A stretch of DNA of 32,532 nucleotides from an uncultured Bacilli bacterium (GTDB lineage Bacteria; Bacillota_I; Bacilli_A; RF39; UBA660): positions 1 through 32,532 of the forward strand of contig CALVQX010000020.1 in NCBI GenBank assembly GCA_944358405.1, read 5' to 3'. Positions within the stretch are counted from its first letter, which is position 1; the number at the start of each line of letters is the position of its first letter. A program made the translations under genes and the position numbers. Below the pieces are notes generated by a model. The model was not told the DNA's origin and searched no databases. It saw nothing but the letters and a program-made list of their open reading frames with translations. This document shows positions 8,373 through 22,990 of the stretch, one piece after another.

Positions 8373-8392
8373 AAGCGAGGAAAAGCTTGTTA
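8369..8392 (+). promoter_or_regulatory. 5'-terminal hairpin in the pncA leader
   Basis: TAACAAGC pairs with GCTTGTTA (8 bp) around the loop GAGGAAAA. The expected transcription start is near 8370, so the stem would form at the very 5' end of the mRNA. It could stabilise the transcript; no known riboswitch fold is recognised. Confidence 0.5.
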
Positions 8393-8405
8393 AAAAACAC
8401 ATTTT

Positions 8406-8428
8406 GTTATTAATAGAATATAAATAAG
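8406..8428. promoter_or_regulatory. RBS-proximal operator-like element upstream of pncA
   Basis: GTTATTAA-N7-TAAATAAG directly precedes the SD GAGGAG. It has the same 8-7-8 layout as the promoter operator with a weaker right arm. Whether it acts as DNA or RNA is unknown. Confidence 0.5.
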
Positions 8429-8439
8429 AGGAGATAAGT

Positions 8440-9036
8440 ATGAATCAAGTGAAAGATCTAAAAGTTTATGAGGGGATGTTAATTGTTGTTGATATGGTGA
8501 ATGGATTTGTGGAGGAAGGCGTTTTACATGATAAAAATATTAAAAAAATTATTCCAAGGCAGATTGAACTGATTAAAGAAGCTCATGATAAAAATCATTT
8601 AGTTATTTTTGTTAAGGATGCACATGATGAAGATGCAGTGGAATTTCGGCGCTTTGGTAATACAAAACATTGCATCAGAGGTACAAGAGAAGCGGAAGTG
8701 GTTGAGGAATTAAAAACATTTGAAGAAATGGATGATACGATTTCAATTGAAAAAAACTCAACAAGTTTTATGGAATCTTTAGAATTTAGAAGGGTTGCTG
8801 CAAATACACCAAATATAAAAACAGTAGATGTTGTTGGTTGTTGTACAGATATTTGCGATTTTAATGGAATTATGGGACTTGCAAATTACTATGATGAATG
8901 GAATCGAGATGTTGAAATTGCAGTACATGAAGATGCCATCGCAACTTACAATGAAGAAGAAAGAGGCGAATATGTAGAGGCGGCTAAGTTATTGATGAAG
9001 CAACAGGGAATACAGTTAGTAAAGAAAATTTCGTAA
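8440..9036 (+). CDS. pncA: Nicotinamidase / isochorismatase-family cysteine hydrolase
   Basis: Probably converts nicotinamide to nicotinate, the first step of deamidating NAD salvage. The 198-aa protein has the isochorismatase-fold catalytic triad: Asp18 in IVVDMVNGF, Lys in SIEKNSTSF and Cys in VVGCCTDICDF. Length agrees with short bacterial nicotinamidases. SD GAGGAG precedes ATG 8440. It is the first gene after a near-consensus promoter whose -10 box lies in an operator-like palindrome, and pncB follows 54 bp later. That context favours nicotinamidase over other cysteine hydrolases of the family. Cytoplasmic. Confidence 0.88.
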   Translation: MNQVKDLKVYEGMLIVVDMVNGFVEEGVLHDKNIKKIIPRQIELIKEAHDKNHLVIFVKDAHDEDAVEFRRFGNTKHCIRGTREAEVVEELKTFEEMDDTISIEKNSTSFMESLEFRRVAANTPNIKTVDVVGCCTDICDFNGIMGLANYYDEWNRDVEIAVHEDAIATYNEEERGEYVEAAKLLMKQQGIQLVKKIS

Positions 9037-9050
9037 TTTTTTTAAAATAT

Positions 9051-9073
9051 GATATTAATAATTTATTAAAAAG
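9051..9073. promoter_or_regulatory. RBS-proximal operator-like element upstream of pncB
   Basis: GATATTAA-N7-TTAAAAAG, preceded by TTTTTTAAAAT and followed at once by the SD-like AAAGGAAGAG of pncB. Same layout as the other elements in the region; left arm identical to the pncA promoter site. Confidence 0.55.
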
Positions 9074-9089
9074 AAAGGAAGAGATAAAA

Positions 9090-10574
9090 ATGAAAAAGGA
9101 AAATTTAACATTATTAACTGATTTATATGAATTGACTATGATGAAAGGATATCATGATATTAAAAATGAGGAAAGAGTGGTGTTTGATGTCTTTTACCGT
9201 AGTAATCCATCAAAGGGAGGATATGCAATTTGTGCAGGTTTAGAACAGGTCATTGAATATATCAAAAACTTACATTTTGAAAAAGAAGATATTGATTATT
9301 TAAGAGAGTTAGAAATTTTTGATGAGGGATTCTTAAAATATTTAGAAGATTTTAAATTTACAGGGAATATCTATGCGATGGAAGAAGGAACGGTAGTATT
9401 TCCAATGGAACCATTATTAAAGGTAGAAGCACCTATTATAGAGGCTCAATTAGTGGAGACTGCTATCTTAAACATGATTAATCATCAAAGTTTAATAGCA
9501 ACGAAAGCATCTAGGGTTTGCCATGCAGCAGAAGGAGAAGGCGTCATGGAATTTGGATTAAGAAGAGCACAGGGGCCTGATGCTGGAACTCTTGGAGCAA
9601 GAGCTGCAATGATCGGGGGATGTTGTGCTACAAGTAATGTATTATGTGGCAAAGAGTTTGATGTTCCAGTTGCTGGAACTCATGCTCATAGCTGGATTAT
9701 GAGTTTTCCTACAGAATATGAAGCATTTAAAAAATATGCCGAACTTTTTCCAAACAATGCTACACTTTTAGTCGATACTTACGATACATTAAATTCTGGA
9801 GTCCCTAATGCTATAAAAGTATTTAAAGAATTACAAGAACAAGGGAAAATGCCTAAAAAATATGGAATTCGTCTAGATAGTGGAGACCTAGCATATCTTT
9901 CTAAACAAGCAAGGAAGATGTTAGATGAAGCAGGATTTTTCGATGCAACTATTTGTGCCTCTAATGACTTAGATGAATATCTAATTGAATCATTAAAAAG
10001 CCAAGGTGCCAAAATTAATTTATGGGGAGTAGGAACTAGTCTGATTACTTCCCGTGATTGTCCAAGTTTTGGAGGAGTATATAAATTGGCTGCGATTAAA
10101 AAAGAAGGAGAAATAATTCCAAAAATCAAATTAAGCGAAGATCGTGTGAAAATTACGAATCCTGGGGATAAGCAAGTGTATCGTTTTTATGATAAAGAAA
10201 CGGGAAAAATTAAAGGAGATATGATTGGATTTGTTGATGAAGAGTACAAAGAAGATCAAAAAATACTTTTGTTTGATCCTGTAGATACATGGAAAAAGAC
10301 AGAATTAATACCTGGTAGTTATACGGTAAGAAAGTTATTACAACCAATCTTTATTGATGGAAAGTGTATTTATGAAAGTCATCCAGTAATGCAAATTAGA
10401 GATTATTGTACGAAGGAAAAAGGAACATTAAGTGATGAAAATAAGAGATTTTTAAATCCACATCCAGTCCATGTTGACCTAAGTTATCCATTATGGGAGT
10501 TAAAAAATAAAATGATCGAAGAAGAAAGAACAAAAAAGGAAAATAGTAAAGTATTTAGGAAGGAAATACATTAA
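9090..10574 (+). CDS. pncB: Nicotinate phosphoribosyltransferase
   Basis: Joins nicotinate to PRPP, with ATP hydrolysis, to give NaMN. The 494-aa protein starts LLTDLYELTMMKGY, the typical N-terminus of the family, and contains the GTHAHSW segment with the phosphorylated His, plus EFGLRRAQGPDAG and RLDSGDLAYLSKQAR, which form the phosphoribosyl/nicotinate site. Length matches the long bacterial PncB type. It follows pncA by 54 bp containing an operator-like element, and nudF follows two bases after its stop codon, so they form one transcription unit. Confidence 0.96.
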   Translation: MKKENLTLLTDLYELTMMKGYHDIKNEERVVFDVFYRSNPSKGGYAICAGLEQVIEYIKNLHFEKEDIDYLRELEIFDEGFLKYLEDFKFTGNIYAMEEGTVVFPMEPLLKVEAPIIEAQLVETAILNMINHQSLIATKASRVCHAAEGEGVMEFGLRRAQGPDAGTLGARAAMIGGCCATSNVLCGKEFDVPVAGTHAHSWIMSFPTEYEAFKKYAELFPNNATLLVDTYDTLNSGVPNAIKVFKELQEQGKMPKKYGIRLDSGDLAYLSKQARKMLDEAGFFDATICASNDLDEYLIESLKSQGAKINLWGVGTSLITSRDCPSFGGVYKLAAIKKEGEIIPKIKLSEDRVKITNPGDKQVYRFYDKETGKIKGDMIGFVDEEYKEDQKILLFDPVDTWKKTELIPGSYTVRKLLQPIFIDGKCIYESHPVMQIRDYCTKEKGTLSDENKRFLNPHPVHVDLSYPLWELKNKMIEEERTKKENSKVFRKEIH

Positions 10575-10576
10575 AA

Positions 10577-11227
10577 ATGAGAAAAGAAAAATTGGAACAA
10601 TTACAAGATTATATTAGGAAGTTACGAACAGTTAAAAAGACCTTAGTTTCATCGGAATGTGTGTATGACAAGGATAAGAAATTTCTTAAGGAAAAAGAAT
10701 TTATAAATATTGAAAAATATATAGTGGAATTAGGAAATGGAATGATAATTCCAAGAGAAAAGATATTAAAAGGTGGAGGAGATAAGAGTGCCGTAATCAT
10801 TATGGCTGTAACCAAAGATAATAATATAGTTTTAGTAGTACAATCAAGAAGTAGCACTCATGAATCGGTATGTGTAGAATTTCCAGCAGGGTATATAGAA
10901 GAAGGGGAGAGTCCAGAGGATGGAGCGAAAAGAGAAATGCTAGAAGAGACGGGATATGTTCCCAGGGAAATGATTTATTTGGATAAATTTTATCAAGATC
11001 AATCTTGTGGGGTTTGTGCTTATAATTACAGTTATTTGGCATTAGGATGTGAAAAGATGCAAGAACAAAATTTAGATGATAATGAAGCAATTCGATATTT
11101 TGAATGTAGTATAGATGAAGTTATGGAGTTAGTAGAGAAAGGCTATATTACAGATATCCAAACAAAATATACCCTAAATCTTGCAAAAGCATATATCTAT
11201 CAAAGAGAAAAACATGGAAAGATATAA
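10577..11227 (+). CDS. NudF-like Nudix hydrolase (ADP-ribose pyrophosphatase)
   Basis: A 216-aa Nudix protein, likely splitting ADP-ribose into AMP and ribose-5-phosphate. The Nudix box is intact: Gly in FPAGYIEEGE, Glu eight residues on, then REMLEETGY (GX5EX7REUXEEXGU), within about residues 110-135. The N-terminal part (residues 1-70) resembles the dimerisation strand region of ADPR hydrolases. It sits in the pncA-pncB operon, where ribose-5-phosphate recovered from ADP-ribose could feed Prs. In NrtR systems ADP-ribose is also the signal, so the enzyme could help switch the regulon off. Substrate is inferred from similarity and context. SD AGGAAGGA, start ATG 10577. Confidence 0.85.
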   Translation: MRKEKLEQLQDYIRKLRTVKKTLVSSECVYDKDKKFLKEKEFINIEKYIVELGNGMIIPREKILKGGGDKSAVIIMAVTKDNNIVLVVQSRSSTHESVCVEFPAGYIEEGESPEDGAKREMLEETGYVPREMIYLDKFYQDQSCGVCAYNYSYLALGCEKMQEQNLDDNEAIRYFECSIDEVMELVEKGYITDIQTKYTLNLAKAYIYQREKHGKI

Positions 11228-12034
11228 AAATAGAAAAAGAAAAAATCCTAGTTTTGCCAATATTAATTTACAGGGACCATGTAATTATCAATGCTATTTT
11301 TGTTTAGGTAGAGATATTTCTCTTGGAGCTTGTCAAAACTATTTAAATAAACATTTTTCTACTTGGAAGAACTTGGATAAATATTTAGAAAAATGTAAGA
11401 AAGCGGGAATTAAAAAAATATATTTGACAGGTCAAAATACGGATCCATTATTATATAACTATTTACAAGAGTTGATAGATTATTTAAAAGAACAAAATTT
11501 TTTGGTAGGGATAAGAACTAACGGCGTTCTTGCTTTAGAAAAAATGGATATTATCAATAGTTTAAACGATGAAGTGGGATTATCGATTCATAGTTTAACG
11601 AAAGAAATTAATAAAAAGATAACAAATCATAGTATGATTCCTAATTGGGATAAGATTATAAGAAAAATAAAAGTGCCTTTAAGGATAGCAATTGTAATTA
11701 CTAGGCATAATAAAAATGAAATTTTAAATTTGATTAAATTCTTTTCCAAATATAAAAATATTCATTATATTCAATTACGTTGCATTGCAACAGATGAAAG
11801 ATATGATGAATTAAAAGAAGATATTCTTTGTTATCAAGAAGTGACAAATCAAATTATAGAAAAGTTTTCATATATTAGAGATTATTATACGGCATCAATA
11901 TATGATATTTATGGAATAGAAGTATGCCTGTGGCGGACTGTTGCAACACAATTAACAGTTATAATTATTTTACAGATGGAATAATTTCTACAAATTACTT
12001 TGTGGTGGAAGGGTATAAAAGAGAGTCAAAGTGA
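11214..12034 (+). pseudogene. Radical-SAM protein with probable single-base frameshift
   Basis: The 256-aa ORF 11214-11984 overlaps the end of nudF and carries the radical-SAM 4Fe-4S motif as CNYQCYFC, with a TGQNTDPLL region and a typical TIM-barrel pattern. A TTG at 11181 is in frame but ATG 11214 looks better. The C-terminus reads TVATQLTVIIILQME. Losing one base near 11946-11950 is suspected, because the -1 frame continues as INSYNYFTDGIISTNYFVVEGYKRESK to the TGA at 12032-12034, which looks like a natural end of this kind of protein. So the gene is either inactivated, making a truncated product, or affected by a homopolymer-like sequencing error (the local sequence is CAACACAA). Its substrate is unknown; it lies between nudF and nadE in the NAD operon. 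Confidence 0.72.
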
Positions 12035-12069
12035 TAATTTTTTGATAAAATAAAAAAGGAGAGATATAA

Positions 12070-14001
12070 GTGAAAGAATATGGATTTATCAGAGTAGGTG
12101 CTATTGTAAATCAATTGTCATTAGCCAACCCTTTTAAAAATGCGGAAGAAATAATTAAGGAGATCAAAAAAGCAGAACAATTAGGTGTTTCTATTGTAGC
12201 AACCCCAGAATTATCTTTAACTGGATATACTTGTGGTGATTTATTTTTACAAGATAGATTACTAGAAGATAGCCAAAAAGCATTACAAAGAGTATTAGAG
12301 GAAACGAAGAATTTAGATATTACTTCTATTTTGGGGATGCCCGTTCGTTGCGATAATCAATTGTTTAATTGTGCTGTTGTGATCAATCAAGGTAATATTT
12401 TGGGAATTGTTCCAAAAACTTATATTCCAAATTATCAGGAGTTCTATGAAGGAAGATGGTTCTCTTCTTCAGAAAAACTAGTTAGTAAGGAAATTGCTAT
12501 TTTCGGACAGAAAGTACCAATTTCTACGAATTTATTATTTCAAGATCGAAAGATGAAAGAAATTACTTTTGCGATTGATATTTGTGAGGATCTTTGGACG
12601 GTAATTCCGCCAAGTGATTATCACACATTAGCTGGGGCAACGATCGTTTTTAATTTATCTAGTAGTAACGAACTGATCGGAAAACAAGAATATCGCAAAA
12701 ATTTAGTATCGATGCAATCAGCGAAGAGTATTTCTGCTTATGTTTATGTATCTAGTGGCATGATGGAGTCTAGTTCTGATCTTTTATTTGGTGGAGCTAG
12801 TATGATTTATGAAAACGGTTCTATGCTAGCAGAAAATAAACGATTTGCAATAGAAAGTAATATAATTACTGCGGATATTGATGTATTAAAATTGGCAAAT
12901 GATAGAAGAAAAAATCGAAGTTATATGGGCCCTAGCGAGAAGAAGGAGCATCAAACTGTTTCTTTTGATGTCAAAGATACGATTCATACGTTGCAAAGAG
13001 AGTATAAAACATATCCATTCGTGCCAACGAATGAGCAAGAAAGAAAGAAAAGATGCGAAGAGATTATTGAGATTCAATCTAGTGCTCTTGCAAGAAGATT
13101 ACTTCAACTTGGAAATCCGAAGTGTATTATAGGAATGTCAGGAGGTCTAGATTCTACACTTGCTTATCTAGTGATTGTGAGAGCATTTGAAAAATTAAAA
13201 AGAGAGATGAAAGATATTATTGGTATTACTATGCCTGGTTTTGGTACTACAGATAGAACCTATCAAAATGCAATCAATTTAGTGAAAGAATATGGAGCAA
13301 CTTTAAAAGAGGTTAGTATCAAAGAAGCAGCACTACTTCATATGAGGGATATTGGTCTACCGGAAGAGGATCGAAGCATTACTTATGAAAATATTCAAGC
13401 AAGAGAACGTACCCAAATATTAATGGATGTTGCGAATATGGAAGGTGGATTAGTGATTGGTACGGGCGATTTATCAGAACTTGCTCTAGGCTGGTGTACT
13501 TATAATGGAGATCATATGAGTATGTATGCGGTTAATACCTCTATTCCCAAAACATTGGTTCGTTACTTAGTAAGATGGGTTGCAGATACTGCGGATGGAA
13601 AGAAAAAAGAAATTTTAAATGATATTCTAGAAACACCAATCTCTCCAGAACTTTTACCTCCAGATGAGGCAGGTAACATCTTACAGAAGACGGAATCTAG
13701 TATTGGGCCTTATGTATTACATGACTTTTTTCTTTATCATTTCCTACGTTATGGTGCTACACCCAAGAAGATTTATGTATTAGCTAAGCATACGTTTCAA
13801 GACAGTTTTTCTGATTCTGAGATCAAGAAATGGTTGAAAGTATTTATTAGACGGTTCTTTACACAACAATTTAAAAGAAATTGTATTCCAGATGGAGTCA
13901 AAGTTGGTAGTATTAGTCTATCTCCTAGAGGAGATTTACGAATGCCAAGTGATGCTAGCTATGAAATATGGTTGCAAGAATTAGAAGATTTACAAAATTA
14001 G
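12070..14001 (+). CDS. nadE: Glutamine-dependent NAD synthetase
   Basis: Catalyses the last step to NAD, NaAD + glutamine + ATP. At 643 aa it is the two-domain type. The N-terminal carbon-nitrogen hydrolase (about residues 1-280) supplies ammonia and shows Glu in ATPELSLTGY, Lys in VPKTYIPNYQEFYEGR and Cys in AIDICEDLW. The C-terminal synthetase has the PP-loop GMSGGLDSTLAY (about residue 355) and VIGTGDLSELALGW. The start is GTG at 12070 with AAAAGGAGAG upstream. Layout resembles the long bacterial NadE seen in Mycobacterium. It has only a faint AT-rich resemblance to the operator elements upstream and is probably cotranscribed. Confidence 0.96.
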   Translation: MKEYGFIRVGAIVNQLSLANPFKNAEEIIKEIKKAEQLGVSIVATPELSLTGYTCGDLFLQDRLLEDSQKALQRVLEETKNLDITSILGMPVRCDNQLFNCAVVINQGNILGIVPKTYIPNYQEFYEGRWFSSSEKLVSKEIAIFGQKVPISTNLLFQDRKMKEITFAIDICEDLWTVIPPSDYHTLAGATIVFNLSSSNELIGKQEYRKNLVSMQSAKSISAYVYVSSGMMESSSDLLFGGASMIYENGSMLAENKRFAIESNIITADIDVLKLANDRRKNRSYMGPSEKKEHQTVSFDVKDTIHTLQREYKTYPFVPTNEQERKKRCEEIIEIQSSALARRLLQLGNPKCIIGMSGGLDSTLAYLVIVRAFEKLKREMKDIIGITMPGFGTTDRTYQNAINLVKEYGATLKEVSIKEAALLHMRDIGLPEEDRSITYENIQARERTQILMDVANMEGGLVIGTGDLSELALGWCTYNGDHMSMYAVNTSIPKTLVRYLVRWVADTADGKKKEILNDILETPISPELLPPDEAGNILQKTESSIGPYVLHDFFLYHFLRYGATPKKIYVLAKHTFQDSFSDSEIKKWLKVFIRRFFTQQFKRNCIPDGVKVGSISLSPRGDLRMPSDASYEIWLQELEDLQN

Positions 14002-14036
14002 AAATTGCAGTATAATAATAAATCAGGAGGAGTTCT

Positions 14037-14912
14037 ATGGAAGTAAAAGAATATAGTCAATATACTCAAGAAGAAAAAGAAGAGATATTAATGCACTGGT
14101 TTCATTATTATGGAAAAGAGTGTTATTTAGTAGAAGAATTAGAGCAATTTCAAATGCTTGTAAAAGAGCATAACAATGAAGTGTTTATCCTTGCAGTTCT
14201 GAGTTATATTCATGGTGATGCTACTCATTCTATTTTAGAGGCTTTGAGACAAAATAAACTAGATCAATTATTTCAAATGATATCGGATCATACTGGTTCT
14301 ATGAATTCTAACAAAGGGTATGCAGCCATGTTTCATCATGCGATGCATCAGTTTATTGAAGAAGTGGTAGAGAGCTATAATCATCCGAAAGCAGATGTTC
14401 CATTTCGAGAAGAAGAGTTAAAAAAACAGGTTCAAAAAATTCAGACTCTACAAGAAGAAAATAAGAAGTTAAATTCGGAAAGAGTAGTAGATACTTTTAG
14501 AGCATGTTTATTTACAGAAGAAGAAATTCAAGATAATAAGCCAACGGAAGAATATACTAGCGTTACCGGAGTACAAGCAACGGTAATTTTCAATACGGAA
14601 AGATTAAATCAGCATAAAAAGGATATTAATGAAATGGTAGACTTAATAGCCAATATTGAACAAGGATCACATTTTTTTGATTTATGTGTTACAAAGTCAG
14701 GAAGAATTTGGACAGGGGAACATGGGATAGTTGATCAATTAATGATTTTAGGTCTAGCAACAGAAGTGTTAGAAGTTCCATTTCATGTACCAAGAGAATT
14801 ATGGGGATCTGTATTTCCAGAAGGACTACCTTATGTAATTAAAAATCCTACTATGGTAGATAAAAAAGTAGTGGGAAATCTTCCAGAGTATTTTCCGACA
14901 AAAAGAAAATAG
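14037..14912 (+). CDS. Unknown 291-aa protein in NAD operon
   Basis: I do not recognise this family. SD CAGGAGGAG precedes ATG 14037, so it is well translated. It is soluble. The first 110 residues look helical with aromatic and His-rich patches (FHYYG, MFHHAMHQF). A coiled-coil-like segment follows at about 125-150 (EELKKQVQKIQTLQEENKK), then a beta-rich C-terminal half with RIWTGEHGIVDQLMILG and PRELWGSVFPEGLPY. It lies 35 bp after nadE on the same strand and ends 58 bp before the methylthiotransferase-like gene. Its place in the cluster suggests, but does not show, a NAD-linked role. Confidence 0.75.
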   Translation: MEVKEYSQYTQEEKEEILMHWFHYYGKECYLVEELEQFQMLVKEHNNEVFILAVLSYIHGDATHSILEALRQNKLDQLFQMISDHTGSMNSNKGYAAMFHHAMHQFIEEVVESYNHPKADVPFREEELKKQVQKIQTLQEENKKLNSERVVDTFRACLFTEEEIQDNKPTEEYTSVTGVQATVIFNTERLNQHKKDINEMVDLIANIEQGSHFFDLCVTKSGRIWTGEHGIVDQLMILGLATEVLEVPFHVPRELWGSVFPEGLPYVIKNPTMVDKKVVGNLPEYFPTKRK

Positions 14913-14927
14913 GGAGATTTCTTTTTT
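14876..14927 (+). terminator. Weak terminator/attenuator-like hairpin before the methylthiotransferase-like gene
   Basis: GAAATCTTCC (14876-14885) can pair with GGGAGATTTC (14912-14921), one G-U pair, with a 26-base loop and then TTTTTT. The long loop makes it uncertain. Confidence 0.35.
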
Positions 14928-14934
14928 AAAATTA

Positions 14935-14957
14935 GATATTAATATTTTGTTAAAAAG
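14935..14957. promoter_or_regulatory. RBS-proximal operator-like element upstream of the methylthiotransferase-like gene
   Basis: GATATTAA-N7-TTAAAAAG, preceded by TTTTTTAAAAT and followed by AAGGAAGG. Its arms are identical to those of the pncB element. Confidence 0.55.
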
Positions 14958-14970
14958 GAAGGAAAAGAAG

Positions 14971-16023
14971 ATGAAAGAAATAAAAAATATTTTTGGAGAA
15001 GGTATTTTATATGAAGAGGGGGATTTAGAAGGGAAAATTTATGCAACTAGTGCTGCATGCATGTCTGTATGGAGTGATATGCTATCTTTTGCAAATCAGG
15101 ATCCAAAGCGATTTGTCATGGATCCTCAGGATGCGGATACGATTGTAGTTTTAGGATGTCAAGTAACAGATTTAGCAGTTTTAAATGATCTAGAAGTAGC
15201 AAAAAAACTACATGATGCAACGAATAAGAACATATTTATTGGAGGTTGTCTTGCTCAAAGAATGGATATACCACTACCAGAGTATATGAAAAGATTAGAT
15301 GTTGTTAGAGTAGTAGGACAAGAATTAGAAGATAGAAGTTTAGTTCATTATGAAAAGCCATTTTGGGTACCAGATTTTAAAGAAAGCAAAGATAATTTAA
15401 AGGATGGGAATTTATTTAGAAATTATTATCCATTAAAGATTGGCGCTGGGTGTCATGGCAAATGTAAATATTGTACCATTCGGCATACTAGAGGAGATGG
15501 ATATGAGATGGTACCAGAAGAACAAATCGAAGAATTTTTAAATCATGACCATGTTGTTTTAACATCAGATAGTCCTACGGTATCTCAAGTAAAAGCTTGG
15601 TGTAGAATTGCTAAAGAATGTAATAAGGAAATATCAATTCGAAATATAGAGCCACAGAACTTAATTCAATGCAAAGAAGAACTATTAGAGTTAGCAGATA
15701 GGAAATTATTAGATATTGTTCATTGCCCTGTACAAAGTTTTGATCCTGAATTATTAAAAGCAATGAATAGAAATGTATCTAAAACGAAGGAGGCAGTAGA
15801 ATTATTACATGAATTAAAAGAAAAAGAAGTCGTAACTGCAACCAATATCATCATTGACTATACAGTAGATGGAAAACTATATCCAAATTTCGATATAGAA
15901 AAATTAAGAGAAAACTTCGATTATTATTCTTGGAATCCTTATTTTGATGGTAATTTTGATATGGATAGAGCAAAGCAAAGATTTAAAAAATATATTACAA
16001 AGGAAAAAGTAACTCAAAAATAA
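14971..16023 (+). CDS. Methylthiotransferase-like radical-SAM protein without TRAM domain
   Basis: A 350-aa protein with the architecture of MiaB/RimO enzymes. The N-terminal UPF0004-like domain has three Cys in recognisable settings (SAACMS, VVLGCQVTDLA, IGGCLAQRM), which would hold an auxiliary 4Fe-4S cluster. The radical-SAM motif is CHGKCKYC, followed by IRHTRGDGYEMVPEEQIEE, as in MiaB relatives. Canonical family members are longer (about 430-450 aa) and end in a TRAM RNA-binding domain; this one stops after the barrel, so the target may not be tRNA. Start ATG 14971 has GGAAGG upstream; an operator-like element precedes it. A bidirectional terminator overlaps its end. Fold call is firm; the substrate is unknown. 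Confidence 0.82.
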   Translation: MKEIKNIFGEGILYEEGDLEGKIYATSAACMSVWSDMLSFANQDPKRFVMDPQDADTIVVLGCQVTDLAVLNDLEVAKKLHDATNKNIFIGGCLAQRMDIPLPEYMKRLDVVRVVGQELEDRSLVHYEKPFWVPDFKESKDNLKDGNLFRNYYPLKIGAGCHGKCKYCTIRHTRGDGYEMVPEEQIEEFLNHDHVVLTSDSPTVSQVKAWCRIAKECNKEISIRNIEPQNLIQCKEELLELADRKLLDIVHCPVQSFDPELLKAMNRNVSKTKEAVELLHELKEKEVVTATNIIIDYTVDGKLYPNFDIEKLRENFDYYSWNPYFDGNFDMDRAKQRFKKYITKEKVTQK

Positions 16024-16037
16024 TGAGTTACTTTTTC
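16003..16037. terminator. Bidirectional terminator between convergent genes
   Basis: GAAAAAGTAACTC (16003-16015) pairs perfectly with GAGTTACTTTTTC (16025-16037) around a 9-base loop, with A and T tracts on both sides. It overlaps both stop codons. Confidence 0.85.
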
Positions 16038-16540
16038 ATCTGAATTTGATAAACTTTTACTTCTTTTACACGATCGATTTGATATAAAGAAGTATCTTTA
16101 GGAACGATTCCATCATAGATTAAAATTCCACCATTTTTAATAGCAATACGTTGTGAGTAAATATTATCGGGCAAAGTAGATATCAAAATCCCTTCTTTCG
16201 TGGCATGGGAATTTTCTTGTAGTACTTCTTTTAAAAGCGAAAGACTTTGTGTACCGTATCCTAGGTGCCTAAATGAATCATAAATCATGTAATCGACATT
16301 ACCACCATAGAAAAACTCATCATATAGCATTGCTTGAAAACCAATTTCTCCAATCTGTTCTAAAGAATCATTTTTAACAATATCAAAAGATAAAAAAGCG
16401 GAGGTGGTAATATTATCATTTCCATCATTAGGTAACAATCCAATTTTATTATTCGTAATGATAGGATGGTAGTCTTCCTTCATAATTATAGTTGGTTTGC
16501 TTATTGTTTTTTGATTGATATAATCATAAAAGTTTTGCAT
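16028..16540 (-). CDS. GNAT-family acetyltransferase-like protein
   Basis: A 170-aa protein starting MQNFYDYINQK at 16540, with AAGGAGG upstream on the minus strand; the longer frame overlapping the upstream gene has no SD. The middle and C-terminal part fit the GNAT fold: a strand EIGFQAMLYDE, then the acetyl-CoA loop around YDSFRHLGYGTQSLSLL (R/Q-x-x-G-x-G/A-like, HLGYGT), and a strand followed by SQRIAIKNGG resembling the usual S..a..N.GF. Substrate unknown. It is read opposite to the flanking NAD genes and follows the unknown 320-aa gene by 44 bp, so the two may be an operon. Confidence 0.72.
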   Translation of the reverse strand: MQNFYDYINQKTISKPTIIMKEDYHPIITNNKIGLLPNDGNDNITTSAFLSFDIVKNDSLEQIGEIGFQAMLYDEFFYGGNVDYMIYDSFRHLGYGTQSLSLLKEVLQENSHATKEGILISTLPDNIYSQRIAIKNGGILIYDGIVPKDTSLYQIDRVKEVKVYQIQMKK

Positions 16541-16584
16541 GGAAAACCTCCTTTTGTAAAGTTTTATATTATCCTTTTTATTTA

Positions 16585-17547
16585 TTATCTTTTTAGTTGT
16601 AAAAGTTTTTCTTTTTGATGATTTCCAACTAATTTTTGATATTCTTGTTCTGATATTTCGATGATCCATGGAGGATCATTTAAGGTTAAAGTTCTAGATA
16701 GATTTAAACCAGGCGCTCCAAATCTGGAGATACTTTCTATACTTTTTTGATATGCTTCGTTTTCAAAACAGTTTGGCTTCCAGCAAACTGCAAATTGAGT
16801 TTTTTCTTTGGTGGTGCATTTTCCAGCGTATACCTCTTGGATATCTTTGTGATATTTCGCTTGTTGTATTTTTGGACAAAATGATAATAAATTTAATATT
16901 TCAACATTTCCTTCTCCTTTTTGTTGATAGATATTTAAATCGTTAAAATTGATGGATCCAGCAGGTAAAAACTCTTCATGAAAGACGGTTTCTTGTGTTT
17001 TGAAGTTTAATGCTTCTGCTATTCTGGAAAGTTCGTTTCCATTTGGTTCAAAAACAGAAAAGAGAAAACATTTACATGGTGCTTGGGGGTATTTGCCAAG
17101 GGTTGAGTATGTTACTAAAACTTTAGATTTATCTTCATTTAGACTCATTTCTAAATCGTAGATAACAGAAGTATCATTTCGGTTTTTTTCTTTATAAATA
17201 AAGTCAAAAATTCCATGAAATGCTAAGGTGCCATCTTTTCCTAATTGAACTTGCATGCTACGTTTTTCTGTTCTTAGTCCATCTGTAGTAATATATTTTA
17301 CAAATGTAATTAGATCATCATTGTGTTTTCTTGTTTCAAAAGAGATATCAAAATCAGAATGTTTTTTTGCCTCTTTTAAATGTTGAATTGAAAATTCTAT
17401 CATTGCATTAATATCAGCGGTTGCGAATAAAAACCTTTCAAAATAATAATTATGTTTATATTCTTTGGGTATTAAATCATATTGCTTTTTAAAATCGGTT
17501 TTTAATAATTGGTTTACTTTGTCTTGCTGATATTCGTTTAAACTCAT
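16585..17547 (-). CDS. Unknown 320-aa protein
   Basis: Not recognised. SD TTAAGGAGG precedes ATG 17547 on the minus strand, and TATAAT lies a short way upstream, so it probably has its own promoter divergent from the prs operon. The protein is soluble with no signal peptide or membrane segment. The N-terminal 100 residues look helical, the rest mixed alpha/beta. Features include a Cys-containing segment QAPCKCFLFSVFEPNG, FCPKIQQAKYH, and a C-terminal RFGAPGLNLSRTLTLNDPPW. Codon use is like its neighbours. It interrupts the plus-strand NAD genes, but no operator copy is seen on its side. Confidence 0.7.
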   Translation of the reverse strand: MSLNEYQQDKVNQLLKTDFKKQYDLIPKEYKHNYYFERFLFATADINAMIEFSIQHLKEAKKHSDFDISFETRKHNDDLITFVKYITTDGLRTEKRSMQVQLGKDGTLAFHGIFDFIYKEKNRNDTSVIYDLEMSLNEDKSKVLVTYSTLGKYPQAPCKCFLFSVFEPNGNELSRIAEALNFKTQETVFHEEFLPAGSINFNDLNIYQQKGEGNVEILNLLSFCPKIQQAKYHKDIQEVYAGKCTTKEKTQFAVCWKPNCFENEAYQKSIESISRFGAPGLNLSRTLTLNDPPWIIEISEQEYQKLVGNHQKEKLLQLKR

Positions 17548-17608
17548 TCTAAAACCTCCTTAATGATTTTATTATAGCACGTTTTTTAATAAAAAAAGAA
17601 AAAAGTAG

Positions 17609-17637
17609 TTGACAAATTTTATAGTTATTAATATAAT
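17609..17637 (+). promoter_or_regulatory. Sigma-A promoter of the 120-aa gene - prs - nadD operon
   Basis: TTGACA at 17609-17614, 17-bp spacer, TATAAT at 17632-17637, a full consensus. The -10 box lies in the centre of the palindrome at 17624-17646. Confidence 0.88.
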
Positions 17638-17646
17638 GTTAATAAC
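17624..17646. promoter_or_regulatory. Putative NrtR operator at the prs-operon promoter
   Basis: GTTATTAA-N7-TTAATAAC, a perfect 8-bp inverted repeat whose 7-base centre TATAATG contains the -10 box. It is the best copy in the window. The match in layout and sequence to the pncA site argues for one shared repressor. Confidence 0.78.
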
Positions 17647-17677
17647 AGATGAAAAACCTGTATATTTTTTAAAATAT

Positions 17678-17700
17678 GTTACTAACAAAGTGATAAAAAG
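17678..17700. promoter_or_regulatory. RBS-proximal operator-like element upstream of the 120-aa gene
   Basis: GTTACTAA-N7-ATAAAAAG, degenerate, preceded by TTTTTTAAAAT and followed by AAAGAGGAG. Same position relative to the start codon as in pncA and pncB. Confidence 0.42.
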
Positions 17701-17715
17701 AAAGAGGAGATATTT

Positions 17716-18078
17716 ATGGAAATGACAATAAAAAAAGAACAAGTAGAGAGAATTTTAACAGATTATTATAGGACAAAAGAAGATGTGAATGGAACAGTTA
17801 AAATGAAAACGAAGAAAGAGTTACTTGGTTATTATACATGCGAGCAGACTACAGCAACAACAACAATAGAGTTATCTGGAACAACAATACTATTAGGAAA
17901 TACCATCGTTGTAAGAAGAGTGATCCCATTTGAAGAATATGAAGGAATATTTAAAGATCTACTAGGAGAGCAAGGATATGAAGTAGAAAGACTATGGATT
18001 GATAACGGTATAAACACAGAATGGACAGGTTGGGGCCAATGGAACATAAAGAAGATAAAGTTTATTGCAACGGAATAA
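17716..18078 (+). CDS. Unknown 120-aa protein heading the prs-nadD operon
   Basis: Not recognised. A small soluble protein with an N-terminal helix (MTIKKEQVERILTDYY), a central beta-rich region (YYTCEQTTATTTIELSG, TTILLGNTIVVRRVI) and a C-terminal WGQWNIKKIKF strand. SD AGAGGAG precedes ATG 17716. It is the first gene after a consensus promoter carrying the best operator palindrome of the window, and prs follows 92 bp later. Strong expression and NAD-linked regulation are therefore likely. No catalytic motif is visible; a binding or regulatory role is possible but not shown. Confidence 0.75.
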   Translation: MEMTIKKEQVERILTDYYRTKEDVNGTVKMKTKKELLGYYTCEQTTATTTIELSGTTILLGNTIVVRRVIPFEEYEGIFKDLLGEQGYEVERLWIDNGINTEWTGWGQWNIKKIKFIATE

Positions 18079-18137
18079 AAATAGAAGCTAAAAAACAAGT
18101 AAAGGAATTTAGAAGATAATATATTTTTTTAAAATAA

Positions 18138-18160
18138 GATATTAATAAAATATTAATAAG
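18138..18160. promoter_or_regulatory. RBS-proximal operator-like element upstream of prs
   Basis: GATATTAA-N7-TTAATAAG, the strongest of the RBS-proximal copies, preceded by TTTTTTTAAAAT and followed directly by the SD AGAGGTGG. Confidence 0.58.
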
Positions 18161-18170
18161 AGGTGGAATT

Positions 18171-19244
18171 ATGAATAATATTAAAATTATTGCTTTAGAT
18201 AATATCAAAGAAATAGGAAGCGAAGTAAATATTAAATTAAACAAATTAAGAAAGACGGATAAAAACTATATGTTAAACATTACAGCTAGTAGATTTTCTA
18301 ATGGAGAAGGAAAAGTAAAAATAGAAGATTCAGTAAGAGAAAAAGATATTTATCTTTTAGCAGATGTTGGTAATTATGGAATGACATATAATATGCATGG
18401 ATTTACTCATCATATGGCACCTGATGAACATTTTCAGGATATTAAAAGAACAATTTCAGCCATTTCTGGCTATTCAGAAAAAGTAACAGTAATTATGCCA
18501 CTTCTATATCAATCAAGACAACATAAAAGAAAAGGAAGAGAATCAGCTGACTGTGCCTTGGCACTACAAGAATTAGAAAGATTAGGTGTGGATCATATTA
18601 TTACTTTTGATGCACACGATCCAACCATATCGAATGCAATTCCTAATCTACCATTTGAAAATTTCTATCCTACCAACACTATTTTAGAGGACTTATTAAA
18701 AACAGAAAAGTTAAATGAAATCTTAGTAATTAGTCCAGATTTAGGTGCTACAGAACGTGCAAGATATTATGCAGAAATGCTAGATACCAATGTTGGAGCA
18801 TTTTATAAAAGACGCGATTTAACAAAAGTAGTGAATGGAAAAAATCCAATTATTGAACATACTTACATGGGATCATCTGTAGAAGGATGCGATGTCTTAG
18901 TAGTAGACGATATGATAGCAAGCGGTGCTTCTATGTTAGAAGTAGGAAAAAGATTAAAAACAGATGGTGCTAAAAAAGTATATTTTATCGCAACCTTTGC
19001 CTTATTTACAGAAGGAATTGAGGAATTTGATAATGCTTATCAAAATCATTATTTTGATAAATTATACACTACGAATTTATCTTACATTCCTGAAGAATAT
19101 AGAGAAAAAGAATGGTTCCATACGGTAGATTGTTCTGAAAATATTGCAAAAATCATCCATGCCCTACATAACAAAGAATCTCTAAAACCATTATTAAATG
19201 GTAAAGAAAAGATCTTAACATTGCGGAAGGAGAAAGGATTATGA
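18171..19244 (+). CDS. prs: Ribose-phosphate pyrophosphokinase (PRPP synthetase), divergent
   Basis: Makes PRPP from ribose-5-phosphate and ATP. At 357 aa it is longer than the usual 310-320 aa. Recognisable parts are MPLLYQSRQHKRKGRESAD (about residues 107-125), DHIITFDAHDP in place of the usual DLHA segment, and the PRPP-binding loop VLVVDDMIASGASM (about residues 242-255). The first 60 residues and the C-terminus differ from housekeeping Prs. It shares the operator-controlled operon with nadD (four-base ATGA overlap), so it probably supplies PRPP for PncB; a second, housekeeping prs may lie elsewhere. SD AGAGGTGG. Confidence 0.88.
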   Translation: MNNIKIIALDNIKEIGSEVNIKLNKLRKTDKNYMLNITASRFSNGEGKVKIEDSVREKDIYLLADVGNYGMTYNMHGFTHHMAPDEHFQDIKRTISAISGYSEKVTVIMPLLYQSRQHKRKGRESADCALALQELERLGVDHIITFDAHDPTISNAIPNLPFENFYPTNTILEDLLKTEKLNEILVISPDLGATERARYYAEMLDTNVGAFYKRRDLTKVVNGKNPIIEHTYMGSSVEGCDVLVVDDMIASGASMLEVGKRLKTDGAKKVYFIATFALFTEGIEEFDNAYQNHYFDKLYTTNLSYIPEEYREKEWFHTVDCSENIAKIIHALHNKESLKPLLNGKEKILTLRKEKGL

Positions 19245-19864
19245 AAATAGGAATTTTTGGGGGAAGTTTTAATCCTCCGCATCAAATGCATAAGAAAATT
19301 GCAAAAGAATTAATTAAGAAAGGGTATGTAGACAAAGTTATCTTTGTACCAACGGGAATAAAATATGAATATAAAAATAATTTGGTTTCTAATGATGCAA
19401 GATATACTATGTTAACCTTAATGTGTGAAAATGAAAACGATATGATGGTTAGTCGTTATGAGTTTCAAGAAAAGCCAGTCTATACTTATGAGACTTTAGA
19501 TCATTTCAAAAGAAAGTATCCAGAGGATGATATTTACTTTATTTGCGGAACGGATAATTTAAGCTATATGGATCAATGGAAAAAAGGAGACTATATTTTA
19601 GCAAATTATAAACTTTTAATTATTAAAAGAAAAACAGATGACATAGGATCTTTGTTAGAAAAATATAAAAAATACAGAAATAATATTGTAATTACAAACA
19701 TTCGAGAACAAAAGTTATCTTCTACCACAATTAGAGAAAATATAAAAAACCAAAAGAGTATCAAAAGATACGTAGACAAAAAAGTATATCAATATATGAT
19801 GAGAAATCACTTATATGATCAGAAAAAAGATCAGGGATACTATTACGTTATTAAAAGTTATTAA
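19241..19864 (+). CDS. nadD: Nicotinate-nucleotide adenylyltransferase
   Basis: Converts NaMN and ATP to NaAD. The 207-aa protein has the nucleotidyltransferase signature GGSFNPPHQMHKKIA at its N-terminus (GxFxPxHxxH), FICGTDNLSYMDQWK in the middle, and SSTTIRE, the C-terminal SxTxxR motif. Length is standard. It overlaps prs by four bases, so the two are coupled. The last 15 residues after NHLYDQK are slightly longer than usual. The usual Bacillota neighbour yqeK is absent; a degraded stretch follows. Confidence 0.94.
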   Translation: MKIGIFGGSFNPPHQMHKKIAKELIKKGYVDKVIFVPTGIKYEYKNNLVSNDARYTMLTLMCENENDMMVSRYEFQEKPVYTYETLDHFKRKYPEDDIYFICGTDNLSYMDQWKKGDYILANYKLLIIKRKTDDIGSLLEKYKKYRNNIVITNIREQKLSSTTIRENIKNQKSIKRYVDKKVYQYMMRNHLYDQKKDQGYYYVIKSY

Positions 19865-19889
19865 AAAGTTTTCTATAATTCATATTTCT

Positions 19890-20263
19890 AGACATTATTA
19901 TTTAAAAGATAAAATAGAGAAATATTGCATACTCCAATGCTGTAACTACTGATGATATCTTATATTTGCAACAACATTTGACGGATAAAAAAATTATAAA
20001 TATTAATACTATTATAATGAAGGATGAAATTCATTCACTAATAGACATAAAATGTATGCTTAATTATGTAGATACTATTAGCGTTTATAAAACTGAGGTT
20101 ATTTTTGACGAAGTATAATTTCTATGCTAAAGAACAGTTGATTAATTTGAAGCATATTTTCGAAAACTTAGATGCGTTTTTTACAGCCTATCATTGTTAT
20201 AGTCAAGACCATTTAATAAAGTTACTGCAAGATTTAGCAAGAAGATTTTGTACAAATAAATGA
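19890..20263 (+). pseudogene. Degraded coding remnant, unknown
   Basis: The 442 bases between nadD and the next gene hold three overlapping open stretches in successive frames: one with SRHYYLKDKIEKYC (from 19890), one from about 19920 to the stop at 20116-20118 with TTDDILYLQQHLTDKK, and one ending at 20261-20263 with NFYAKEQLINLKHIFENL. Joined through two frameshifts they would give about 120 residues. None has a good start codon or SD. This looks like a decayed gene, but I cannot name the family. Confidence 0.4.
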
Positions 20264-20306
20264 GATATGATAAAATAGGAGAAAATCGAATTTAGAGGTG
20301 AGTTAT

Positions 20307-20894
20307 GTGTTCAAAAACATCGAGATTAATGCCGAATGGTATTATCACCGAATTGATATGTTTTCGATGAAAGGTATTTTTCAATCCAGAGCAATATTAT
20401 CTAAGAGAAAGCAAGGATATCATAAGACAGATACTTGTTCTTGGAACGGATTAGACTACATTTCCGTAGCAAAACGAATTCCACAAATGATTTACGATAG
20501 TTTTTACCAAAAAATAATTAGAGGGCAATATGCTTTTGTGTTGGATAAAATTGATATCATTCCAACAAAGTATAAGAAAAAGCATTATGACTTTTTTCGA
20601 ACTATTTCAACGATTCTTCCGAATCAATGGTATTCTTGCTATCGAGATGAGTATCAAGTAAAAGATAGAATAGTAAAAGATAGAATAACGATAGAAAAAA
20701 TAATAGGAATCAAAATTCCAGAAAAAGATCAAAATATTTTCGTTGGTTATCCAAGCTACATGACAAAGGATTGCTATATTGACTTATATTTAAAAAATAT
20801 GGAAGAATACAAAATAGACTTACCATTCTTTGATATTGAAGAGGGATTACAAATAGATCAAGAAGAAATAAAAAGGTATCTTATAACAAGATAA
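20307..20894 (+). CDS. Possible ADP-ribosyltransferase-like protein (DarT-like pattern)
   Basis: A 195-aa protein of no firmly recognised family. GTG 20307 is chosen because AGGTGAG lies just upstream; GTG 20298 would overlap that SD. The order of motifs resembles DarT/Tpt1-type ADP-ribosyltransferases: YYHRID with His14 followed by a helix MKGIFQSRAILSKR (as in H..d...l..Il..G.l.s), NGLDYISVAKR with Tyr51/Ser53, a strand YAFVLD, then YRDEYQVKDRI with Glu115 followed by IEKIIGIKIP (as in the E-LV...i....I..I.v pattern). That H-Y-E-like layout would bind NAD. It lies between nadD and pncC. The call is inference from pattern only; a housekeeping or structural role is possible. Confidence 0.5.
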   Translation: MFKNIEINAEWYYHRIDMFSMKGIFQSRAILSKRKQGYHKTDTCSWNGLDYISVAKRIPQMIYDSFYQKIIRGQYAFVLDKIDIIPTKYKKKHYDFFRTISTILPNQWYSCYRDEYQVKDRIVKDRITIEKIIGIKIPEKDQNIFVGYPSYMTKDCYIDLYLKNMEEYKIDLPFFDIEEGLQIDQEEIKRYLITR

Positions 20895-20906
20895 AAGGAG
20901 GAAAAT

Positions 20907-21383
20907 ATGGATTTTAAAGAAGTGATACATCTTTTACAATTAGAACAAAAAACGATTTCAACCATGGAATCTTGTACTGGTGGCGGAGTTGCCAATGCGA
21001 TTACTAATTGTGAAGGTGCGAGTGAAATACTAAAATTTAGTGCAGTAACGTATTGTAATGAGTACAAAATAAAGATGGGTGTACCAAAAGAAGTAATTGA
21101 TAAATATACAGTTTACAGTATGGAAACAGCAGATGAAATGAGCCAAAATATTGCAAAGTTTGCTAATAGCGATTATGGAGTAGGGATTACCGGACAATTG
21201 AATAGGCAAGACCCTGCCAACCCAGTTGGCAAAGATAACGTTGTTTATATTAGTATTTATGATAGAGAAAATGATAAGTATTATAGAGAAAAGATGGAAG
21301 TTCATAAAGAAAGTAGAAAATTAAATAAAGATCATGTCATTGACAAAATTATTGAAATGCTAGAAAGTATATTAAATATGTGA
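20907..21383 (+). CDS. pncC: Nicotinamide-nucleotide amidase (stand-alone CinA C-domain)
   Basis: Deamidates NMN to NaMN, returning NMN (for example from DNA ligase) to the NadD/NadE route. The 158-aa protein is the C-terminal CinA domain alone, with the catalytic Ser22 in TMESCTGGGVAN, the AVTYCNEYKIKMGV segment and YGVGITGQ. Family members normally show GITGxAGP here; this one has GITGQLNRQDP, a small departure. SD AAAGGAGG precedes ATG 20907, 12 bp after the ART-like gene, so the two are probably cotranscribed. Confidence 0.88.
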   Translation: MDFKEVIHLLQLEQKTISTMESCTGGGVANAITNCEGASEILKFSAVTYCNEYKIKMGVPKEVIDKYTVYSMETADEMSQNIAKFANSDYGVGITGQLNRQDPANPVGKDNVVYISIYDRENDKYYREKMEVHKESRKLNKDHVIDKIIEMLESILNM

Positions 21384-21407
21384 TAATATAGTGTTGAGGT
21401 GATTTGT

Positions 21408-22109
21408 TTGAGAGATGCTGATTTAGCGAAAGTAAGGGAAGAATTTAGAAAAAACTTAAAGGAAAGTTCGGATTTTTCTTCCTATAAAAAGGAATTAAAA
21501 AGATTAGAGGAAAATGAGTATGTAAAACGATATTTAGAGCTTTTAGAGCTAGTAGATAGAGATGATAAAGAACCAACAGTAGAAGAACTCGTTAGTCTAG
21601 CTTATCAAAATGCGAATGTTTCTATACGGGATGAAGATAGTAATCATATTATGGTATATGTAGGAACGTACTGCAAAGATACAGATATGCATCATGACAA
21701 TGACTCACTGACGCTTAATGATAGTAATGCTAGTTATAAAGCATATTTAGATTTAGAAACACAGCAAGCTTATAATATTGCCATGGACAAAACAGAGGAA
21801 TTTGAACGAGAATTTCTTACGCTATATCTTCCTATAGAAAATAAACTAGATCATCATGACTATATGTCACAATATTTTGAACTGCAAACTTGGTTTAAAA
21901 AAGAATTAATGCAAACACCCCAAGATATGGTAATAAAAAAACTACAGATAATAGGAAAAATAAGAAAAAGTGAAGATGCAAACTCTTTTGATGTTTCGCT
22001 TTTTGTTCGAGCATATGGAGATGACTATTATCTAGAAAAATTTGGGTTATCACACAAAAATAGAGAAAAAGTAAAACGATACAAAGTGGAGCATCCTGAA
22101 TTTTGCTAG
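21408..22109 (+). CDS. Unknown 233-aa protein between pncC and nrtR
   Basis: Not recognised. TTG 21408 is chosen because GAGGTGAT lies upstream; GTG 21399 overlaps that SD. The first 65 residues are charged and helical (VREEFRKNLKES, YKKELKRLEENEYVKRYLELLELV), probably coiled coil. The middle has an alpha/beta part with HIMVYVGTYCKDTDMHHDND, which holds Cys, His and Asp residues that could bind metal. No signal peptide or membrane segment. It starts 24 bp after pncC and ends 49 bp before nrtR. Confidence 0.7.
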   Translation: MRDADLAKVREEFRKNLKESSDFSSYKKELKRLEENEYVKRYLELLELVDRDDKEPTVEELVSLAYQNANVSIRDEDSNHIMVYVGTYCKDTDMHHDNDSLTLNDSNASYKAYLDLETQQAYNIAMDKTEEFEREFLTLYLPIENKLDHHDYMSQYFELQTWFKKELMQTPQDMVIKKLQIIGKIRKSEDANSFDVSLFVRAYGDDYYLEKFGLSHKNREKVKRYKVEHPEFC

Positions 22110-22126
22110 TTTTTTTCTTGAGTTAT

Positions 22127-22149
22127 GTTATAATCAAAGTATAAATAAG
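22127..22149 (+). promoter_or_regulatory. Extended -10 promoter and operator-like sequence upstream of nrtR
   Basis: TGTTATAAT at 22126-22134 is an extended -10 box. GTTATAAT-N7-TAAATAAG (22127-22149) has the 8-7-8 layout and the same right arm as the pncA RBS-proximal element, directly before the SD AGAGGTG. It could be an autoregulatory site, but part of the match may be generic AT-rich leader. Confidence 0.4.
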
Positions 22150-22158
22150 AGGTGTGAT

Positions 22159-22989
22159 ATGAAAAAAGAATATAAAACAGAAGAAGAATTCCTAAAAGAT
22201 TATGATCCAAAAGAATTTGATCAATTATCTATAACTGCTGATATTTTACTTGTTAGTGTATCTGATCAAGAACAGACAAATTATCGAAAAACCAGTAAGA
22301 AAATGATGAGCATTCTACTAGTAAAAAGAAATGATTTTCCATATAAAGGAAAATGGTGCTTGCCAGGAGGATTTTTAAATCCAAAAACGGAAACATTAGA
22401 AGAGTGTGCTAGAAGAGTTTTAAAGAATGAAACGAATTTATCTCATATTTATCTAGAACAATTGTATACTTTTGATGGATTGGATAGAGACCCTAGAACT
22501 AGAGTTGTTTCAACTGCTTATGTTGCTTTGATTGATAAAAATCAATTGACTGAAATGATCAATGAGAATGCTTCATGGTTTGATATTGTTTTGATTGAGG
22601 AAAAAGATGGTATAGTAGATATTACTTTGGATAATGGAAGTGAACTGATTCGTCTTTCTATTCGCAAGGAGTTAAAAGAGGAAACAACAGATCGCTATTT
22701 ATTCACTGATATTGGGAAGGAGTCTTTGGCATTTGATCATTCTGTTGTTTTGTTGTCTGGTTTAGAACGAATTCGTAATAAATTGAATTATACAGATATT
22801 GTTTTTAATATGATGCCAGAATATTTCACTTTAGGGGAACTTCAACAAGTGTATGAAGTTATTTTAGGTAAAAAATTGCTAGATCCAGCATTTCGAAGAA
22901 TTATCGCGGATAAAGTAGAAAAGACCAACAAGATGAAGACAGGGGAAGGTCATCGCCCATCGGCACTATTTCGTTATAGGAGAAAGTAA
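22159..22989 (+). CDS. nrtR: NrtR-type transcriptional regulator (Nudix domain + winged helix)
   Basis: A 276-aa regulator of NAD genes. Residues about 20-165 form a Nudix domain starting ADILLVSVS with PGGFLNPKTETLEECARRVL, and residues about 190-270 a winged-helix domain with MMPEYFTLGELQQVYEVILG and FRRIIADKVEKT, ending HRPSALFRYRR, as in NrtR. The Nudix box is degenerate: RREU is replaced by RRVL and EEXGU by NETNL, so hydrolysis is probably lost and the domain senses ADP-ribose, as established for NrtR repressors. It is followed one base later by nadK. Likely targets are the palindromes at 8350 and 17624. Confidence 0.9.
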   Translation: MKKEYKTEEEFLKDYDPKEFDQLSITADILLVSVSDQEQTNYRKTSKKMMSILLVKRNDFPYKGKWCLPGGFLNPKTETLEECARRVLKNETNLSHIYLEQLYTFDGLDRDPRTRVVSTAYVALIDKNQLTEMINENASWFDIVLIEEKDGIVDITLDNGSELIRLSIRKELKEETTDRYLFTDIGKESLAFDHSVVLLSGLERIRNKLNYTDIVFNMMPEYFTLGELQQVYEVILGKKLLDPAFRRIIADKVEKTNKMKTGEGHRPSALFRYRRK

Positions 22990-22990
22990 T

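Follow-up and report, generated by a model that had tools for sequence, protein, structure and literature searches.

A TRAM-less methylthiotransferase-like radical-SAM protein encoded in NAD-salvage clusters of uncultured Bacilli and Woesearchaeota-group archaea

In this work, we analysed a radical-SAM protein with the architecture of methylthiotransferases (MTTases), whose gene location and predicted operator point to an undescribed step of sulfur or radical chemistry in NAD metabolism. The window, i.e. the whole 32,532-nucleotide stretch analysed, is a contig of the 1.32-Mb genome of a Bacilli-like uncultured bacterium, and the protein, hereafter T, is the TRAM-less UPF0004 and radical-SAM protein encoded at 14971-16023 (+). 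MTTase-fold radical-SAM enzymes are already known and it is the NAD-regulon clade formed by T that is new; in the literature searched, mostly without subscription papers, neither NAD metabolism nor the NrtR regulon was reported to include an MTTase-like or radical-SAM protein.

Gene T is a 350-amino-acid open reading frame starting at ATG 14971, which is preceded by a purine-rich ribosome-binding site, and ending with the stop codon at 16021-16023; a TTG at 14947 is merely upstream of this start. Using Pfam, Radical_SAM was detected at residues 156-293 (4.6e-16) and UPF0004 weakly (6e-6). PF04055 was present in 23/23 aligned T members and in both further archaeal ones, and UPF0004 was found in 23/23 members at E<=0.01, near the cutoff (26.6 vs 27 bits for T). 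With its motif and barrel, T belongs to the radical-SAM superfamily, and the association of UPF0004 with radical SAM gives it the architecture of the MTTase superfamily.

Six cysteines, which an earlier note on this DNA had counted as the ligands of two 4Fe-4S clusters, are indeed present and were invariant across all aligned members, including three archaeal ones. They comprise the auxiliary-cluster residues C30, C63 and C93 (codons at 15058, 15157 and 15247, i.e. 15058-15249, +), which align with C12/C49/C83 of MiaB and C17/C53/C82 of RimO, and C161, C165 and C168 of the CxxxCxxC radical-SAM motif (15451-15474, +). Judged by these conserved ligands, T is a predicted two-cluster radical-SAM protein. 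The same note had reported TRAM as missing, and this held for the family, as none of the 25 T proteins submitted to the profile scan gave a TRAM match, the positive controls scoring 74.8 (Escherichia coli MiaB), 76.8 (E. coli RimO) and 45 bits (MiaB of the window genome). Since the Pfam profile misses the TRAM of the window genome's own MtaB, stronger evidence for TRAM loss is provided by the 350-residue length and by the structural model, which stops where the barrel does, at a point corresponding to MiaB residue ~383 of 441. Surface charge was considered as a clue to RNA binding and was uninformative (pI 5.4 vs 5.7 for MiaB).

None of the NCBIfam cutoffs for known MTTases was reached. T scored 81 bits against TIGR00089 (MiaB/RimO family methylthiotransferase, cutoff 251), and 39, 48, 56 and 58 bits against the MiaB, MtaB, RimO and archaeal MtaB-like equivalogs (cutoffs 315-357), the thresholds being 355-357 for MtaB and MiaB (TIGR01579 and TIGR01574) and 357 for the S12 methylthiotransferase RimO (TIGR01125). 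The structural model, built from 23 sequences with a mean pLDDT of 85.8, predicts an MTTase fold without TRAM. Its best solved matches, over 272-289 residues, were MtaB (Z 18.6; 3.9 Å over 287 residues), MiaB (Z 18.3) and RimO (Z 17.4; 23 % identity); this ranking was obtained after realignment, B12 radical-SAM enzymes being top by Foldseek E-value.

To the two domains and six matching cysteines shared with MtaB and MiaB, a comparison of 24 T members with 41 canonical MTTases added the RG, HxPxQ and MxR motifs, which are all kept. Other MTTase-invariant positions are replaced in 24/24 T members: (i) the asparagine of GCxxN (Asn15) is a valine (V33 in T); (ii) the asparagine of NTC (Asn47) is a leucine (L61 in T); (iii) the GFPGET motif has IDY where MTTases have VGF; (iv) the YSxRxGT stretch is missing; and (v) the serine of SR (Ser175) is not kept. 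These replacements affect the surroundings of the auxiliary cysteines as well as the barrel, and methylthiolation may therefore have been lost. T also possesses fixed motifs of its own, e.g. WNPYFDG close to the C-terminus. RimO has the same two-domain core and illustrates that the fold can act on a non-RNA target; unlike RimO, T has no TRAM_2.

Phylogenetic analysis against MiaB, MtaB and RimO, which the earlier note had proposed as a check, grouped all T members in one clade (100/100 support; branch length, 5.6 changes per column) that lies outside MiaB, MtaB, e-MtaB and RimO in the best tree. The AU test, limited here by long branches, rejected none of the alternative attachments tried (MtaB, p 0.30; MiaB, p 0.18; e-MtaB, p 0.18), and T and RimO were already on one side of the tree (82/75 support). 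Other TRAM-less MTTase-like proteins of ~370 amino acids, encoded in T-bearing genomes (locus L085, 634-1749, -; locus L088, 1471-2582, +), formed a separate long-branched pair in this tree.

These data bear on the possibility that T is a MiaB or MtaB relative that lost TRAM and acts on tRNA or another RNA, its synthesis being tied to NAD status. The fold, closest to MtaB and MiaB, and the AU test are compatible with such a role, as is chimera work indicating that the choice between i6A and t6A resides outside TRAM (PMC10702137). However, TRAM is absent, T falls outside the MiaB and MtaB clades in the best tree, a site in NAD operons of both archaea and bacteria is unexpected for a tRNA enzyme, and one or more canonical MTTases remain in 15/15 T genomes searched. 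We thus regard an RNA target as quite improbable. The presence of canonical enzymes in these 15 genomes also led us to reject T as a replacement for a missing MTTase.

In the window, T is surrounded by genes of NAD salvage, all on the + strand. Upstream are a pncA-like gene encoding an isochorismatase-family hydrolase, a nicotinamidase by context (8440-9036; PF00857, 5.9e-23), pncB for nicotinate phosphoribosyltransferase (9090-10574; NF006695, 694 bits, above cutoff), a Nudix hydrolase gene of the ADP-ribose/ADP-compound type (10577-11227; PF00293; NudE-like at 53 bits, below cutoff) and nadE for glutamine-dependent NAD synthase (12070-14001; NF002730, 893 bits). Between nadE and T, a protein with no significant family is encoded at 14037-14912, partial homologues of which adjoin T in loci L030 and L031. 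Downstream are a gene for a small protein of ~120-140 amino acids belonging to no known family (17716-18078), prs for ribose-phosphate diphosphokinase (18171-19244; NF005299, 461 bits), nadD for nicotinate-nucleotide adenylyltransferase (19241-19864; TIGR00482, 164 bits), and nrtR for the Nudix-related NAD repressor (22159-22989; NrtR_WHD 63 bits, NUDIX 51 bits). Two further genes were read from sequence and context, i.e. pncC of the CinA C-terminal type, a putative NMN deamidase and conserved neighbour of T (20907-21383), and nadK, a putative NAD kinase gene and conserved member of the cluster (22991-23791).

Several features of this cluster were noted in passing. A second radical-SAM gene with MoaA/viperin-like scores (11181-11984, +) lies between the Nudix gene and nadE; its typical C-terminus runs on in another frame, a frameshift due to mutation or to an error in sequencing, and the listed open reading frame of its relative in L030 is likewise short. 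Relatives of the small 17716-18078 protein recur in the NAD clusters of L030, L031, L033 and L034. The window pncB shares 86-88 % identity with those of L029 and L030 and about 50 % with that of L031, unlike nadE, T, prs and nrtR of L031, which are more than 80 % identical to those of the window; pncB seems to have been replaced.

A 22-bp element is common to the leaders of five genes of this cluster, i.e. T (GATATTAATATTTTGTTAAAAA, 14935-14956), pncA (8350-8371), pncB (9051-9072), the small gene at 17716-18078 (17624-17645) and prs (18138-18159), all on the + strand. The earlier note had seen it before T and pncB, and the genome-wide search bore this out: across the 1.32-Mb genome, the consensus GWTATTAATAWWWTRTTAAWAA was matched exactly at five places, all within the window, and the reversed-pattern control at none. 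When the T site was left out and a weight matrix built from the other four sites only (pncA, pncB, prs and the small gene), the T site scored 26.4 bits, fourth among 65,010 window positions (trained sites, 25.7-32.1), a score reached by 0 of 2 million simulated positions under either null. The best sites in related loci read GTTATTAA-TATAATG-TTAATAAC, an 8-N7-8 palindrome with the same layout as that of Mycobacterium smegmatis NrtR, GTTTTCGA-N7-TCGAAAAC (PMC6800001). We infer that NrtR binds this element. By sharing a predicted operator with NAD genes in a genome that encodes nrtR, T is placed in the putative NrtR regulon. The window resembles known NrtR regulons in combining nrtR with pncA, pncB, nadE, nadD, prs and nadK, and differs from those in the literature searched by its radical-SAM member, and also by its half-site, GTTATTAA.

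Inspection by eye indicated a TTGACA-17-TATAAT promoter at pncA and at 17716, its -10 box (TATAAT) falling within the 7-bp spacer of the operator. T also has an operator of its own in L031, L036 and L037; at most of the remaining bacterial loci, operator-led NAD genes precede it. A second operator is often found ~48-67 bp downstream of the promoter-proximal one, right before the ribosome-binding site (window, 8350 and 8400; L031, L033, L034, L035, L037, L038, L039 and L043); the internal sites of pncB, T and prs resemble this second type and are preceded by TTTTTTAAAAT. Riboswitch control of the T leader was discarded, no Rfam family reaching gathering level in 8000-24000.

Orthologs of T were found in 6/386 genomes of the family of the window organism, the five others at 59-72 % identity, and weaker matches among these genomes were MtaB-like. 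A scan of the genomes of 84,980 species yielded 23 loci (L029-L051). Searching the phylum to which the Woesearchaeota record belongs (279 genomes) added two members, and the order to which the Clostridia record belongs (238 genomes) contained no T beyond the two already known. Beyond the window, 25 members were thus gathered, from uncultured Bacilli, two Clostridia and three Woesearchaeota-group archaea. As the peptide patterns of the scan would overlook variants of the kind seen in the two added archaea, the family is under-sampled. L052 (Sphingopyxis; 27 % identity over 154 residues) was not counted as a member.

T is located inside an NAD-salvage cluster in 24/26 loci, which are related by descent and not independent, i.e. 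21/21 Bacilli-type loci (window included) and 3/3 archaeal ones. The immediate neighbours differ by genome (nadE, nadD, pncC, prs, nadK, nadM, pncB or pncA), giving at least seven gene orders, among them nadE-T-prs, nadE-T-nadD, nadD-T-pncC, nadK-T-..nrtR, pncB-T-pncA, nadM-T-nadK and nadE-T-nadD-nudix. The archaeal arrangements are nrtR-pncB-T-pncA-pnuC-nadR-like-nadE (L050), pncB-pncA-nadE-nadM-T-nadK (L059) and pncB-pncA-nadE-T-nadD-nadK (L060). In the two Clostridia loci (L048 and L051), which speak against an NAD role, T stands alone with no NAD genes nearby. Because gene order changes and two domains of life are involved, shared history is insufficient to explain the linkage. The genome-context survey suggested by the earlier note therefore returned a recurring NAD linkage in bacteria and archaea; together with the position of T in the best tree, to which the AU test allows alternatives, this departs from the picture that the note had set against its own reading, of a protein inside an RNA-modifying clade with no such linkage.

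One might still suppose that T is a passenger whose place in NAD clusters and operator are functionally meaningless, which would suit a gene so rare and absent from most relatives. Yet the linkage survives at least seven arrangements and two domains of life, several genomes provide T with an operator of its own, and its dN/dS of 0.06-0.17 indicates purifying selection, so that we find a passenger status barely credible.

Other observations were made on these loci. In L029 (Candidatus Faecimonas gallistercoris, 10001-11047), T has one in-frame stop after residue 116 and is otherwise open, and may be a pseudogene or reflect a sequence error. In L049, a short stretch between prs and T (9657-10001), at the place of nadD in relatives, resembles a decayed nadD. 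Radical-SAM genes of other families occur in the T-bearing NAD clusters of L033 (14238-15125 and 4465-5772) and L035 (11060-11791), the L033 gene at 14238 being preceded, at a distance of 38 bp, by an operator-like site (17.7 bits). Genes of the ADP-ribosylglycohydrolase type are found in such clusters in bacteria and an archaeon (L033, 12169-13002; L046, 11672-12541, a call from sequence only; L050, 14692-15696). A phage or plasmid origin of T was rejected: there were no plasmid matches, two scans of viral contigs with T, and a third with the unknown protein next to it, revealed no relative encoded there, and the only phage match was a full RimO on an unverified contig labelled Bacteriophage sp. 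(L053, MT836040.1, 5986-7347), whose bacterial-looking neighbours suggest that it is probably a mislabelled bacterial contig. A defence role was likewise dismissed, with no PADLOC match.

Among 20 fetched NrtR loci without T, several with a fully covered cluster have the full NAD gene set. As these T-less nrtR clusters of the same family are otherwise complete, T is accessory and not needed for the known route, and it was rejected as a missing step of the ordinary NAD pathway. Our best overall explanation, of T as an enzyme that plays an accessory part in the NAD-salvage regulon, has an even chance of being right, and roughly the same holds for the broader proposal that it acts on a small molecule of the NAD pathway.

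NadA was detected in 0/16 T genomes tested, so these organisms rely on salvage for NAD. T might accordingly serve salvage entry, its radical chemistry turning an alternative pyridine vitamer (e.g. a nicotinate or nicotinamide that is N-methylated or modified on the ring) into the nicotinate or nicotinamide used by PncA and PncB, with the auxiliary cluster binding the substrate as in MoaA and delivering no sulfur. Besides this salvage dependence, the presumed co-expression of T with pncA and pncB and the altered MTTase residues close to its auxiliary cysteines are consistent with the idea, and in MoaA and TYW1, which like T are radical-SAM proteins, a three-cysteine auxiliary [4Fe-4S] cluster can bind substrate or co-substrate (PMC5352715). 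The auxiliary cysteines of T are nevertheless located elsewhere than in MoaA, i.e. in the N-terminal UPF0004 domain. T-bearing Clostridia genomes have no detectable PncB, making nicotinate useless there, and no vitamer transporter recurs with T. On balance, a role at salvage entry seems unlikely.

In the Clostridia genome G764 (1.81 Mb read), PnuC and NMN-adenylyltransferase-like genes were present, and PncA, PncB, NadE, PncC, NrtR and NadK gave no match; given that even NadK was not found, limited sensitivity or gaps may account for some of these negatives. Should T have one and the same function in all its hosts, the G764 gene set would imply that nicotinate and NaAD are not required substrates, and that NMN, NAD and NADP are possible ones.

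Alternatively, T could resemble RimO, an MTTase with a protein target, and methylthiolate or otherwise modify a residue of an NAD-cluster enzyme or of NrtR. Its linkage to many NAD genes with no single fixed partner could be read this way, but no one partner adjoins T in every locus, and the clusters contain non-orthologous enzymes (nadD or nadM, two nadE types), leaving no obvious protein substrate. Moreover, the TRAM of RimO is suited to binding its substrate S12 (PMC5352715), and T has none. Protein modification is accordingly judged distinctly unlikely.

The leading guess, tentative as it is, remains methylthiolation or thiolation of NAD(P) or of a direct precursor. On NAD turnover, ADP-ribose would accumulate and NrtR would leave its operators, so that T would be produced alongside the salvage enzymes. 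One [4Fe-4S] cluster would cleave SAM to give a 5'-deoxyadenosyl radical, which would take a hydrogen from a small molecule of the pyridine-nucleotide pathway. With three cysteine ligands, the auxiliary cluster would keep one iron open and could deliver sulfur or methylthio, as in MiaB and RimO, or anchor the substrate, as in MoaA. As substrate, NAD(P) or a close relative may be guessed, since among the metabolites of the pathway only NAD(P) and NMN are expected to occur in all lineages with T. MiaB and MtaB act on C2 of adenosine (PMC10702137), a moiety that the dinucleotide also carries, and an adenine dinucleotide would thus demand the least departure from known chemistry.

Sulfur or methylthio transfer connected to NAD, as the earlier note had envisaged, stands in part. 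The NAD tie is upheld by the operator shared with pncA, pncB and prs and by the 24/26 loci, whereas the chemistry is not borne out, MTTase-invariant residues being replaced and the nickel-pincer nucleotide (NPN, LarA) version being unsupported. In the LarB/LarC/LarE pathway to this cofactor, sulfur is added to a nicotinate-derived nucleotide by a non-radical-SAM route. LarA (PF09861) was found in 0/14 T genomes, with control genomes positive, and an NPN route for T was rejected for want of a LarA client. It is a doubtful prospect that T is the first MTTase-fold enzyme to act on a free metabolite, placing sulfur or methylthio on NAD(P) or a direct precursor and so forming an undescribed modified pyridine nucleotide used by some gut Bacilli and Woesearchaeota-group archaea.

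NAD salvage is usually seen as a well-mapped set of hydrolases, transferases and ligases. A radical-SAM protein kept in the salvage cluster of bacteria and archaea, with the operator of the regulon, suggests an as yet unassigned step or branch. The T family is also a natural experiment on the MTTase fold once the macromolecule-binding TRAM is gone. As the organisms that encode T depend on salvage for NAD, such a step may be of importance for host-associated organisms living where vitamin B3 is scarce.
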